Positions 2,464 to 17,042 of a DNA stretch of 64,000 nucleotides are shown one piece after another (within the stretch, counting starts at the first letter, position 1; the number at the start of each line of letters is the position of its first letter). This DNA comes from an uncultured Opitutaceae bacterium (GTDB lineage Bacteria > Verrucomicrobiota > Verrucomicrobiia > Opitutales > Opitutaceae), in assembly GCA_937902925.1 (NCBI GenBank), contig CALFNN010000103.1:62001-126000 (forward strand), written 5' to 3'. Position numbers and translations under genes: made by a program. A model generated the notes under the pieces. The model worked only from the letters and a program-made list of their open reading frames with translations. It was not told the origin of the DNA and searched no databases.

Positions 2464-3993
2464 ATGCCGGTGGCGAACGACACCATGATGGACGACGCCC
2501 AACTGTTGCGCCGCTACGTGGAGAAACGCTCGCAGGAGGCGTTCGCCGAGCTCGTGCAGCGGCATGTCAACCTGGTCTACTTCGCCGCGCTCCGGCGGGT
2601 CGGTGGCGACGCGCACCTCGCGGACGACGTCGCGCAGCGCGTCTTCGCCGATCTCGCCCGCAAGGCCCCGACACTCCGGGGCCGGACGGCGCTCACGGGC
2701 TGGCTCTACACGAGCACGCGTTTCGCGGCGGCGCAGGCGGTGCGGAGCGAGCGGCGGCGGCGAACCCACGAACAGGAGGCCCAAACCATGCAAGAAATTC
2801 ACGCGACGGCGGACCCCGATTGGAACCAGCTCCGGCCGGTCATCGACGAGGCGATGGACGAGTTGAGCGATACCGATCGCGAGGCGGTGCTGCTGCGTTA
2901 TTTCGAGAACCAGCCGCTGGCCGCCGTCGGGGCGAGGTTCGCCCTCAGCGCGGACGCCGCGCGGATGCGCGTCGATCGCGCCCTCGAAAAGTTGCGCGGC
3001 CTGCTCGAGCACCGGGGCGTCGCGTCGACCTCCGCTGCGCTCGCGACGGTGTTTTCCGCGCAGTCGGGCATCGGCGCGCCGGCGGGCATCATCGCCCGGA
3101 TTGTCGCGCAGGCGACGGGTCAGGCCGGGGTGGTTTCGGCGGCGACTTTCACGCTGTGGAAAATTGTTGCCGGGGTCGCGGCGGGCGCCGCGGCCGTGGG
3201 CGTGACGATTTACGAAGTGAAGGCCCATGGCAGCGACAGGCGCGTGGTTCCCGCGGTGGCGGTCGCCCGCGAAAGCGTCGATCCCGGCGCCGCTACCCGT
3301 TCGCCCGAGCCGGCGGCGCCCGCGTCCGCGGAAATGATTGTCGCGGCGCCGGCCCAACCGCCCCGGCCGGCCGGCGTTGCCCGGGCGGTCGCGGGGTTTG
3401 ACGGATTGTCCGAGCGACAGAAAAACATCCTCAAGACTCTCTGGGCGCACCGGGAGATCGCCCCGGAGGCGCCGCCGTCGGGTTGGAGTTTCAAGCTCGG
3501 GCCGAAAGCGCCGGACGCCGCGATCGCGGAGTTTGCCGCGGCCGTCGAACTGCTCCATGCCGCGGGTCTCGTGGGCGTTCATGCCGGCAGCGACACGGTT
3601 TTTCTGACCGACGCGGGCGACGCGTTTTGCCGGGCGCATGCGGCCGAGATCGACGCCCTGCCGTCGAATCTTGCCGCGTTCGTGCCGATGAAATTCGGTG
3701 CGCTGCCGGAACGGGCGAAAAAAATCCTGAAGACGCTCTGGGCGCATCAGAAAGTTTCGCCGGACCGGCCGGCGCAGCGATGGGCTTTCCGGGTCCCGCC
3801 CGATTCCCCGGATTCCGCGGACTTCGAGGCGGCGGTCGCGGGGCTCCACGAGGTGAATGGTCTGGTCGGGGTCAGCCCCCAGACGGGGATGGTATTCCTT
3901 TCCGACCGCGGGCGGGAATTCTGCGAGGCGCACGCGGCCGAGATCGATGCCTACCCGCTGCCGCCTTCCGTCTCGCGTCCGCTGGTGCCGTGA
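2464..3993 (+). CDS. ECF-type sigma factor with membrane segment and duplicated C-terminal module
   Basis: Residues 8-100 match sigma-70 region 2 (QEAFAELVQRHVNLVY, DDVAQRVFADL) and residues 115-182 match region 4 (LSDTDREAVLLRYFE, SADAARMRVDRALEKL). A hydrophobic stretch at about 230-250 could cross the membrane. After an Ala/Pro linker come two copies of an 85-residue module (about 313-398 and 412-496), each with ILKTLWAH near its start and CRAHAAEIDA or CEAHAAEIDA at its end, resembling winged-helix domains. ATGs at 2485 and 2488 would give MMDDAQLLRRY, closer to the start of the second sigma factor at 14127, and may be the real start. No anti-sigma gene is adjacent. The sigma part is secure; the role of the repeats is unknown. 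Confidence 0.85.
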   Translation: MPVANDTMMDDAQLLRRYVEKRSQEAFAELVQRHVNLVYFAALRRVGGDAHLADDVAQRVFADLARKAPTLRGRTALTGWLYTSTRFAAAQAVRSERRRRTHEQEAQTMQEIHATADPDWNQLRPVIDEAMDELSDTDREAVLLRYFENQPLAAVGARFALSADAARMRVDRALEKLRGLLEHRGVASTSAALATVFSAQSGIGAPAGIIARIVAQATGQAGVVSAATFTLWKIVAGVAAGAAAVGVTIYEVKAHGSDRRVVPAVAVARESVDPGAATRSPEPAAPASAEMIVAAPAQPPRPAGVARAVAGFDGLSERQKNILKTLWAHREIAPEAPPSGWSFKLGPKAPDAAIAEFAAAVELLHAAGLVGVHAGSDTVFLTDAGDAFCRAHAAEIDALPSNLAAFVPMKFGALPERAKKILKTLWAHQKVSPDRPAQRWAFRVPPDSPDSADFEAAVAGLHEVNGLVGVSPQTGMVFLSDRGREFCEAHAAEIDAYPLPPSVSRPLVP

Positions 3994-13985: not shown

Positions 13986-14126
13986 GGCGTCGTCCGGAAG
14001 CTAGCCCAAGCGGCGGCGGCAACCAAGCGCGAAGGCGGGAGCCGCGCCCGACCGACCGCGGGTGGGAGAAGCCACGCGATTCTTTGTTCGGTTTTGGGAA
14101 CGGCGCTGTTTATGAGGTAAACCCGC

Positions 14127-15581
14127 ATGAACGATGATGCCGTCTTGCTCCGCCGTTACGCCGACGAAGGCTCGGAAACCGCCTTTACCGAGCTGGTGCG
14201 CCGCCACATCGATCTCGTCTACGGCGCCGCGTTGCGCCGCACCGGCGGCGATCCGCACCGGGCCGCGGATGTCGCGCAGTTGGTTTTCACCGCTCTGGCC
14301 CGCGAGGCGCGGAAACTTTCCCGCCACGCCGTGCTCGGCGCCTGGCTCCACACCGCCACGCGGAACGCCGCGCTCAACCTCATGATCTCGGAGCAACGCC
14401 GCCAGGCGCGCGAAGTCCAAGCCCTCACCCTCAATCCCGCACTCGCGGCCGGCGATCCGGCGCCCGACTGGGACCGATTGAAGCCGGTGCTGGATGCCGC
14501 AATCGACGAACTGCCCGAGGCGGACCGCGCCGCGGTGGTGCTGCGTTTTCTCGAGCGGCGGCCATTTGCGGAGATCGGCGTCGCGCTCCACGTCTCCGAG
14601 GACGCCGCGCGGATGAGGACCGATCGCGCGCTCGACAAACTGCGCGTGGCGCTCGCCGGTCGCGGCATCACCTCCACCGCGGCGGCACTTGCGGCCCTCG
14701 TGGCCGGCCAGCCGCTGGTGTCCGCTCCGGCGGGCCTGGCCGCGGCGCTCGCGGCGCAATCGCTCGCCATGGGCAATGCCGGGCCCGCCCTCTTTGGCGC
14801 CCTCGCCACCATTATGAGCACCAAAATCCTCGCCACGGCTGCGTTGAGCGCGGTCGTTTTCTTCGCGCTCGGAGCCTATGTGGGCGTGGACTATACCATC
14901 GGACAGCCGCCGCTGCCGCCGCCGGAACGCCCGGCACAGACAGAGAAAATCGCGTCGCTGCGCGAGCAGAACGACCGGCTGCGGGCGGAGGTGGACCGGT
15001 TGACGGCGGTCAACGCCACGCTCTCCGCGGCGCATGCCGCCCGGCCTGCGCCTGCTCCAGCGGCGCCGGTCGCTCGTCCGGCGGCGGCCGTTCCATCGAC
15101 GGCGGTCGCAGCGCGGCAAATCACGATCCTGAACAATCTCCGGCAGCTCGCCGCGGCGCGCGATCAGTTCATGCTCGAAAACGGCCGTCCTCCGGCCTCG
15201 CTCGACGATCTGGTCGGCGAAACGAAATTCATCCGGCGGCTCGACCCGATTGCGGGCGAGGATTATTCGCTGGTCCTGGTGGGGCGCGATCAGCCGATGG
15301 TCGTCACCATGGCCGATGGCACGAACGTGACCTATGATCCGGTCGGCGGAACAACGACGCACGTGGTCGTTCCGACTCCGCCGGAGCGGATCGCCGCGCT
15401 CGCCGCCCTCTTGGGGCCCAGGGTGGGGCCCTCCATGCAGCGCGCGGTGGCCGCCTATGCGGCGGCCAACAACGGTGGCTTGCCGGCCAATCCGCAGGCG
15501 CTGCTGCCTTACTTCGCGACCCCGCAGGAGGGCGCCGATTTCGTCGAGGCCATCGAGGCGCAGAAAGGGGCCCGACCCTGA
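14127..15581 (+). CDS. Sigma factor fused to membrane helix, coiled coil and pilin-like domain
   Basis: The product is 484 residues. Residues 1-95 are sigma-70 region 2 (ETAFTELVRRHIDLVYG, AADVAQLVFTALA) and 115-178 are region 4 (LPEADRAAVVLRFLE, SEDAARMRTDRALDKL). A strong membrane helix lies at about 233-252, then a coiled coil (271-302), an Ala/Pro linker and a C-terminal domain (331-412) that begins ITILNNLRQLAAARDQF, resembling the globular part of pseudopilins. A last helical block (about 436-478) follows. Thus a transcription factor appears to be tethered to the membrane. The adjacent gene at 15626 repeats everything from the helix onward. No anti-sigma gene is seen, so the C-terminal half may hold sigma in check or be cleaved. 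Confidence 0.88.
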   Translation: MNDDAVLLRRYADEGSETAFTELVRRHIDLVYGAALRRTGGDPHRAADVAQLVFTALAREARKLSRHAVLGAWLHTATRNAALNLMISEQRRQAREVQALTLNPALAAGDPAPDWDRLKPVLDAAIDELPEADRAAVVLRFLERRPFAEIGVALHVSEDAARMRTDRALDKLRVALAGRGITSTAAALAALVAGQPLVSAPAGLAAALAAQSLAMGNAGPALFGALATIMSTKILATAALSAVVFFALGAYVGVDYTIGQPPLPPPERPAQTEKIASLREQNDRLRAEVDRLTAVNATLSAAHAARPAPAPAAPVARPAAAVPSTAVAARQITILNNLRQLAAARDQFMLENGRPPASLDDLVGETKFIRRLDPIAGEDYSLVLVGRDQPMVVTMADGTNVTYDPVGGTTTHVVVPTPPERIAALAALLGPRVGPSMQRAVAAYAAANNGGLPANPQALLPYFATPQEGADFVEAIEAQKGARP

Positions 15582-15625
15582 AGGGGTGGCAACCGGATCG
15601 AGCTTTCCCCGACATTGTTTTCACC

Positions 15626-16396
15626 ATGAATCCCAGAACCATCACAGCCGCGGCCGCCGGCGCACTGATCGCTTTTTTGATTGGAAACTATTTTGGCTTT
15701 GGCCAGTCCGCGGCGGTGGCGCCGGTGCCCCCAGCGGTGGCCGCGGCTCCTTCGCAAGCAGCGCAGACAAACACGGCGCTGCGCCAGGACAACGAGCGCC
15801 TCGTGGCGGAGGCCTTCCAGTTGAAGGCGGCGCTCGAGCGCGTCGACGCCGCCAACACCGAGCTGATGAAACAGCACGCGGCACCGGCGGCGGCCCCGTT
15901 CGTCGCCAGCAGCCCGAACATCGGGCTGCCGATCTACGAACTCCAGCGCGGCGTGCTCAACAATCTCCGGCAGATCGATGCCGCGCGAAAACAATTTCAA
16001 ATCCAGAACGGTCACTCGGCTTCGTCCGTCCGCGACTTGGTCGGGACGCGCAGCTTCATCAAGACGGTGCGCACCGTGGGTGGGGAGGATTACTCGGCGG
16101 TGCCGATGGACGCCACGCAACCGATGACGGTGACGACGCCCGACGGGGTCAGCGTGACCTACGATCCCACCGGAGGGACGACGACGCATCTGGACATCCC
16201 GCCGGAGGTGGCGCGCGTGCAGGAGCTGAGCGCGAAGGTGCTCAAGCCGTCCACGTCCGCACTCCAAGCCTATCGCGCGGCGCACGGAGGAGGCAACCCG
16301 CCCAACGAGGAAGCGGTGCTGCCGTATTTTGCCACACCTGAGGAGGCCGCCGACTTCGCTGAATTCATCAAGGCGAAGCGGGCCGCGGGCCTCTAG
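15626..16396 (+). CDS. Stand-alone paralogue of the sensory half of the upstream sigma factor
   Basis: The 256-residue product has a membrane helix at 6-25, a coiled coil at about 48-84, and a domain (111-187) clearly related to the C-terminus of the sigma factor encoded 44 bases upstream: NNLRQIDAARKQF against NNLRQLAAARDQF, GEDYS in both, and VTYDPTGGTTTH against VTYDPVGGTTTH. The final block also matches (LPYFATPEEAADF against LPYFATPQEGADF). There is no sigma region. It probably arose by duplication and loss of the DNA-binding half, and may pair with the sigma factor through coiled coil or pilin-like domain. Function is unknown. Confidence 0.82.
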   Translation: MNPRTITAAAAGALIAFLIGNYFGFGQSAAVAPVPPAVAAAPSQAAQTNTALRQDNERLVAEAFQLKAALERVDAANTELMKQHAAPAAAPFVASSPNIGLPIYELQRGVLNNLRQIDAARKQFQIQNGHSASSVRDLVGTRSFIKTVRTVGGEDYSAVPMDATQPMTVTTPDGVSVTYDPTGGTTTHLDIPPEVARVQELSAKVLKPSTSALQAYRAAHGGGNPPNEEAVLPYFATPEEAADFAEFIKAKRAAGL

Positions 16397-16433: not shown

Positions 16434-17042
16434 ATGGGAAAAACAGGGATGCCTTCACCAGGGCGGATGCGAGTCGGGTTGCTGCTCGGCGGATTGCTGG
16501 CGGTTATCGGCCTCGGCGTTGCACTGGTGCAATCGGGGGCCGGACACGCGTCGCGGCAACTGGTGGGCTGGCTCGGCTTCGATCTTCATCGCAAGCTCTT
16601 CCCTGAGCAGGACGCCGCGGGCCCGACCTATGACGAAACCGCGAAAGGGCCGCTGGCGCTGGCCGCGCTGGTCGGCCAGTTGCGCGCGGCGTGGCCCGGC
16701 GAGAGCCTGGCGGTCGTGCATGGTGCCGCGTGCGACGTCGCCACGGGCCTGTTGCACCACCGCGACATCGAGGTGGGCAGCCTGACCGGCGGGAAGTTCG
16801 TGCCGTGGCCGATGAGCCGGTGGGCGGCGGAGGAGAAAATCCGCCGGGAGGTGATGGCGATGCCCGGCTTGCTCACCGATGAAACCGACTACGTGTTCCG
16901 GCGGAAGCCGGACTCGGGGACACGCGGGGCCGGTGCCCACTGGCCACGGGCCGTAGGCAGAATGGTCGGATGGCCGGCTGGGATTTTCCGTTCCAGGCTG
17001 GTGGGCGCGAGGCCGGGGGGAATCTCGGCGACAGCGCGATGA
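16434..17042 (+). CDS. Membrane-anchored protein of unknown function
   Basis: From the ATG at 16434 the product is 202 residues, with a membrane helix at about 14-34 and a soluble part containing VVHGAACDVATGLLHHRDIEVG and a Trp-rich motif VPWPMSRWAAEEK. In-frame ATGs at 16449 and 16467 are alternative starts. The last 40 residues or so, after FRRKPDSG, are Gly/Arg-rich and of lower quality, so the true end or a frameshift there is uncertain. It follows the pilin-like gene by 37 bases on the same strand. I do not recognise the family. Confidence 0.5.
   Translation: MGKTGMPSPGRMRVGLLLGGLLAVIGLGVALVQSGAGHASRQLVGWLGFDLHRKLFPEQDAAGPTYDETAKGPLALAALVGQLRAAWPGESLAVVHGAACDVATGLLHHRDIEVGSLTGGKFVPWPMSRWAAEEKIRREVMAMPGLLTDETDYVFRRKPDSGTRGAGAHWPRAVGRMVGWPAGIFRSRLVGARPGGISATAR

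Follow-up and report, generated by a model that had tools for sequence, protein, structure and literature searches.

A membrane-tethered ECF sigma factor with a pseudopilin-like domain and a sigma-less twin in an Opitutaceae genome: one unit of a paralogue family that appears to read its own promoters

The window, a stretch of 64,000 nucleotides from an uncultured Opitutaceae bacterium, encodes an ECF sigma factor fused to a transmembrane (TM) helix, a coiled coil and a pseudopilin-like domain, and directly downstream a twin protein that lacks the sigma part. With moderate confidence, we see in this pair one representative of a large family whose ECF sigma factors are tethered to the membrane, address their own promoters and are tuned by sigma-less partners. 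Computation supports the architecture, the recurrent pairing, the recognition of the own promoter and selection on the region of an internal ATG. The compact pair given in the preliminary description is real, but that view was too narrow, as the pair is one member of a large family with apparently self-read promoters.

The fusion gene and its sigma-less twin

The features of the two genes are as follows.

14127-15581 (+): fusion of ECF sigma factor, TM helix, coiled coil and pseudopilin-like domain, 484 aa (ORF, Pfam, NCBIfam, AF2)
14193-14399 (+): sigma region 2 of the fusion, aa 23-91 (Pfam Sigma70_r2, E 1.4e-9)
14499-14645 (+): sigma region 4 of the fusion, aa 125-173 (Pfam Sigma70_r4, E 2.2e-11)
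14823-14879 (+): TM helix of the fusion, aa 233-251 (AF2 helix, of low confidence there; hydrophobic, after Lys, conserved in the alignment)
14931-15041 (+): coiled coil of the fusion, aa 269-305 (AF2 helix, heptads with Asn at 'a')
15096-15341 (+): pseudopilin-like domain of the fusion, aa 324-405 (homologous to the genome's own pilins)
15378-15572 (+): second C-terminal helical module of the fusion, aa 418-482 (AF2 helices; kept in orthologues and in the twin)
15626-16396 (+): sigma-less twin, 256 aa (ORF without sigma domain)
15632-15694 (+): TM helix of the twin, aa 3-23 (predicted helix)
15749-15877 (+): coiled coil of the twin, aa 42-84 (predicted helix)
15932-16177 (+): pseudopilin-like domain of the twin, aa 103-184 (homology and structural alignment)

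The sigma part of the fusion consists of sigma2 and sigma4, with sigma3 absent, and scored 63.8 bits against the NCBIfam sigma70-ECF model (cut-off 42.9), which places it among the ECF factors. A TM helix and an extracytoplasmic domain lie C-terminal to sigma4, which is the architecture of TM-extended ECFs. Pfam, NCBIfam and the AF2 model agreed on the order of ECF regions 2 and 4, membrane helix, coiled coil and pilin-like domain that had been read from the letters of the DNA. The ORF coordinates and Pfam likewise confirmed a twin that begins after a gap of 44 nt and repeats helix, coiled coil and domain without the sigma part. Fusion and twin were 39-50% identical across their common part, and the second C-terminal module of the fusion (about aa 418-482) carries the motif '..AYxxAN.G..P.NP..LLPYF..'. 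Structure predictions, which were of monomers, gave TM and coiled-coil helices in each protein alone, with low confidence in the linker and TM of the fusion model. The a/d register of the two coiled coils was identical, with Asn at 'a' positions in both, which is compatible with pairing but proves none.

No anti-sigma Pfam domain matched the twin. A role of the twin as an anti-sigma factor was rejected, as its TM starts at about residue 3 and it has almost no cytoplasmic part. Because only about two residues precede this TM, any action of the twin on the fusion would have to take place within the membrane or in the periplasm, in agreement with the coiled-coil idea.

The C-terminal domain of fusion and twin is homologous to the globular part of type IV pilins from this genome: about 40% of 79 aa were identical in L056_5436 and L056_5994 (E about 1e-13), and L056_5436 has the N_methyl prepilin motif (PF07963, E 1.3e-8). 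By fold, the domain resembled PulG: 1t92 was the top row of the second-look alignment of the twin model (Z 7.1, 84 residues, rmsd 3.1 Å). The earlier label 'pilin-like' was borne out by both likenesses. A Foldseek search of the twin model against PDB returned nothing significant, and the best matches of a C-terminal-half profile among PDB sequences were weak, mostly coiled-coil segments, and not significant. Unlike type IV pilins and PulG, the window proteins possess neither a prepilin motif (no Pfam match to PF07963 in fusion or twin) nor a pilin N-terminal helix, and have an ordinary TM and a coiled coil instead. Since the prepilin N-terminus is absent in both, fusion and twin are pseudopilin-like and not pilins.

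The paralogue family and its promoters

A search of the 6.0 Mb genome with the fusion identified about 25 proteins that have sigma, linker and TM in common with it, at roughly 37-60% identity. Their C-terminal parts differ; by eye, one was TonB-C-like, one was SLBB-like, and the others were unnamed. The genes are clustered: contig C102 carries about ten and C55 five. A pseudopilin-like part occurs in just one further full-length fusion of the genome (contig C95, 45% identity, no partner). About a dozen further genera of the family have orthologues of the window fusion, and more distant relatives were found in other families of the class and phylum; many of the genomes compared were draft assemblies.

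The promoter of the fusion operon and the residues of the sigma factor that bear on it are:

14084-14112 (+): promoter with -35 TTGTTCGGTTT (14084-14094), spacer and -10 region CGGCGCTGTTTA (14101-14112)
14601-14603 and 14613-14615 (+): recognition-helix residues D159 and M163 of the fusion, which covary with the fourth variable base of its own -35

What the aligned upstream regions of the paralogues share is TTTTTGTxCGGTTTTC, then a spacer rich in GC, then a -10 resembling TATAG; the ATG follows the 16-base -35 block at about 25-40 nt. The log-likelihood of this shared motif was 349, compared with 162-173 in shuffles. Exact TTGTxCGGTTT occurred at 17 sites in the genome, 15 of them upstream of fusions. 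One-mismatch -35 sites numbered 217 in the genome versus 191 in the reversed control, so no large regulon was seen. The window promoter ends 14 nt ahead of the fusion ATG and is the genome's only zero-mismatch bipartite site. Its variant is kept nearly letter for letter in orthologues of other genera. Across 200 genomes of the family, the bipartite window variant had 21 matches (0 in the reversed control), and 17 of the 21 stood 10-15 nt ahead of the start of a sigma fusion.

The variable -35 base x tracked sigma4 recognition-helix residues 159 and 163 in 47 of 50 fusions. D159 with M, V or I163 went with T (26/27), N159 with G (12/13), and K163 with C (9/10). The rule drawn from these 50 fusions was right for 20 of 21 distinct held-out genes (a tally of 21/22 before two loci proved to be one gene), and the sole miss, Arg163 with C, again joined a basic residue to C. 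Furthermore, across genomes, the more alike two sigmas were, the more alike were their promoters (rho 0.51; at most 0.25 in permutations). The sequences are related and not independent, so that the code amounts to about 12 changes of the base on a tree whose branches have weak support. It is nevertheless unlikely to be a by-product of ancestry, because the rule succeeded on held-out genes. Each fusion sigma therefore appears to read mainly its own promoter, and the own-gene motif and the residue-base code point, by sequence alone, to positive autoregulation.

Autoregulation and residue-base codes are known for ECFs in general, positive autoregulation being common and not universal, and AAC and CGT are promoter elements typical of ECFs. 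About 55% of ECFs are reported to be autoregulated (PMC8103513). What sets this large group of paralogues apart from known ECFs is that its members appear to address themselves almost exclusively, and that their -35 and -10 elements are unlike AAC/CGT.

Of the two exact -35 sites not before fusions, the one on contig C90 looks like an antisense coding match. The other (L108, G000:C36:88495, minus strand), which alone of the two is close to a start, has a poor -10 and is followed after 28 nt by a 170-aa ORF whose N-terminus carries a TM; this ORF is a possible extra sigma target. In the L050, L052, L156 and L198 fusions, in which C goes with Q162-K163, the -35 was shifted to TGTCGGATTT, which suggests that residue 162 may set a further -35 base in the Gln162-Lys163 subgroup.

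Recurrence of partner genes and the conserved internal ATG

A sigma-less TM gene was located within -50 to +44 nt downstream of 15 of the 25 fusions of the genome, and all 15 products matched fusion C-termini (BLAST E below 1e-4). These products begin with a TM helix, followed in most by a coiled-coil-like stretch, and the nearest fusion of some partners was the immediate neighbour (e.g. 34% over 340 aa, E 1e-40). The partner genes overlap or abut the fusions, often by 4 nt, an arrangement fitting coupled synthesis. Starts were assigned by codon-usage score and partners by hydrophobicity, so an individual assignment could be wrong. The same layout was present at 14 of 20 held-out loci in other genera of the family, with a 4-nt overlap in several, and also at several loci in a different family of the class. 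The preliminary description had proposed a signalling unit without an anti-sigma gene, and these counts uphold a recurrent two-gene unit with a sigma-less partner.

As to whether the pair co-occurs elsewhere, the outcome was divided: the layout of fusion and sigma-less gene recurs in other genera, but none of 11 orthologues of the window fusion in other genera had an adjacent twin. Because all 11 are without it, the twin is lineage-specific within the window-fusion subgroup. In G017, a homologue of the gene after the twin stands directly after the fusion orthologue. In the tree, the twin clustered with fusions from outside its genus (86/85) and apart from the neighbouring fusion; sisterhood of twin and neighbour had an AU p of 0.053 and was not firmly rejected. 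A simple recent duplication of the neighbouring fusion is thus neither supported nor firmly rejected as the origin of the twin.

The absence of the twin at the 11 orthologous loci, the gene order in G017 and the lack of any promoter motif upstream of the twin would fit a decaying or neutral partial duplicate that has no role and whose pairing is incidental. We regard this as quite improbable: the twin ORF is intact and retains the invariant domain residues, and most paralogues and other genera show the same layout. The gene just after the twin in the window (16449-17042, plus strand) is an unknown gene with an N-terminal hydrophobic helix, which possibly belongs to the fusion operon.

The chief rival to a self-activating loop is a homeostatic module, in which the sigma-less membrane protein would be the working product, associated with the envelope or pilus; the fusion would gauge its shortage and activate the operon, with the twin as output. 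The motif points to self-regulation and, with no large regulon seen, to the operon as the main target; the partner genes sit in the operon, and the outer domains resemble envelope components such as pilins. About 9 of the 25 fusions and the window orthologues have no partner gene, however, and the sensor domains are highly diverse, and we consider such a module unlikely.

One further feature of the fusions would bear on the supply of sigma-less protein:

14814-14816 (+): conserved internal ATG (Met230) of the fusion, a putative internal start (Met in 52/56 fusions)

In these 52 of 56 fusions the Met lies within about three residues of the TM (F-M-S-T-T-K). Amino-acid-corrected third-position GC drops sharply around this ATG, at codons -4 to -1 and +2 to +5, and nowhere in the aligned region is it lower (residual over 9 codons -0.27, against a median of 0.007 with sd 0.053). 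No comparable dip was found at other conserved Mets of the fusions, no comparable AT-rich patch in the four fusions without the internal Met, and no dip in 86 internal hydrophobic segments of other genes (0.004 +/- 0.015). Predicted folding of the 60 nt around the internal ATG was -11.7 kcal/mol, compared with -13.7 for gene starts, which were roughly called, and -20.4 for the rest of the fusion genes; it was nearer to the gene starts than to the rest (p 5e-11). No Shine-Dalgarno sequence was found at the internal ATG, and none is enriched at the genome's true starts either. In held-out loci of the same family, the Met was present in 17 of 21 and the dip was -0.17 against a null of 0.01 +/- 0.03 (0 of 2000); it was weaker in other families (32 of 2000). 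The window fusion has the Met, with a dip of its own of only -0.06. No trade-off between partner gene and internal-start signal was detected (p 0.92).

Because the internal ATG is kept in a synonymous AT-rich, unstructured patch, the fusion genes probably also yield a sigma-less isoform from this start. The Met and the patch might instead have a role unrelated to translation, for instance in membrane insertion or as a recombination hot spot for module swapping; the C-terminal modules switch at about this junction, and the window copy and L094 retain the Met without AT bias. We judge this rather unlikely, given that the bias is synonymous, extends over codons -4 to +5 around the ATG and is absent from other conserved Mets and from the 86 hydrophobic segments, and that local folding is like that of real gene starts in a genome without Shine-Dalgarno enrichment. 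Fusions of one C-terminal type, moreover, retain the AT-rich patch with different letters, and both sigma-less pilin-type genes, the window twin and a lone one in G153, start at the position of that Met.

Proposed mechanism and comparison with known systems

In the mechanism that we favour, that of a self-addressed tethered sigma factor tuned by its partner, the fusion would be located in the inner membrane with its sigma part in the cytoplasm; because sigma must be cytoplasmic, the coiled coil and the pseudopilin-like sensor would be periplasmic. The fusion would sense an envelope state; once its own state changes, probably because the right partner is lost, regulated proteolysis would follow. 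The freed sigma would transcribe mainly its own promoter and boost the operon, that is, fusion, partner and probably the internal-start isoform. New sigma-less subunits would then pair with the fusion or occupy its ligand, setting the threshold and the shut-off, and periplasmic competition by sigma-less proteins would replace the job of a separate anti-sigma factor. Release by proteolysis is suggested because IutY and ECF52 serve as analogues (PMC8999054); we infer the heteropairing of fusion and twin through their coiled coils, the direction of control and the ligand. Against a tuned pair stands that the window-fusion orthologues work without an adjacent twin. It is possible, and we put it somewhat short of probable, that each family gene gives a tethered sigma and an internal-start sigma-less isoform, often with a third protein from the partner gene. 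The genome would then run about 25 parallel self-reading loops, with a -35 code of two residues and one base, and with subunit competition instead of anti-sigma factors.

ECF48, ECF52 and ECF53 (e.g. SCO4117 of ECF52) share with the window family sigma2-sigma4, a TM, an extracytoplasmic domain and the lack of a separate anti-sigma factor, a likeness of architecture, phylogenetic group membership aside; they are thought to be proteolytically activated (PMC8999054, PMC5826349). These groups are actinobacterial, and their zinc-finger and carbohydrate-binding domain were not found in the window family. Only the latter, in turn, has the large paralogue array, the sigma-less partners, the internal start signal and the paralogue-specific self-promoter code. 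In IutY (ECF243) of Pseudomonas putida, sigma is also held in the membrane by its own C-terminal part and is freed by Prc/RseP (PMC8999054), but IutY also has a fused anti-sigma of the FecR type and a TonB-dependent receptor as its working partner, neither of which was found for the window fusion. The nearest relatives of the window family are likely to be the planctomycete ECFs with WD40 and other extensions. These belong to the same superphylum and, in the portion of PMC8567305 drawn on here, are likewise expanded paralogues with C-terminal domains, many of them young, and found in membrane-associated fractions. Their outer domains are different, and that portion of the account describes neither sigma-less partners nor a promoter code. 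The literature searched contained no prior description of the pair of fusion and twin, and its novelty is provisional. Tethered ECFs are already known; the paired, self-addressed array looks like a new form of them.

If the proposed mechanism is true, these proteins form a signalling class without anti-sigma factors, with sensor, tether and transcription factor in one protein and damping supplied by copies of its membrane half that lack sigma. The arrays offer naturally occurring pairs of ECF and promoter whose specificity code is simple and testable, and they could help to explain how dozens of similar sigma factors in one cell escape cross-talk.

Two minor observations were made on other genes. 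Other envelope-type proteins of this genome also carry the pseudopilin-like domain, at the end or close to it; they are encoded at L045 14807-15499 (-), L055 6300-7859 (+) and L054 7076-7663 (-). The group comprises a protein with a LysM domain alongside, a long lipoprotein-like protein and a small secreted-looking one. The window also holds a second family member (2485-3993, plus strand), a sigma fusion with a duplicated helical C-terminal motif. It has neither the promoter motif nor the internal Met, no partner gene was called for it, and it is possibly a member that left the scheme.
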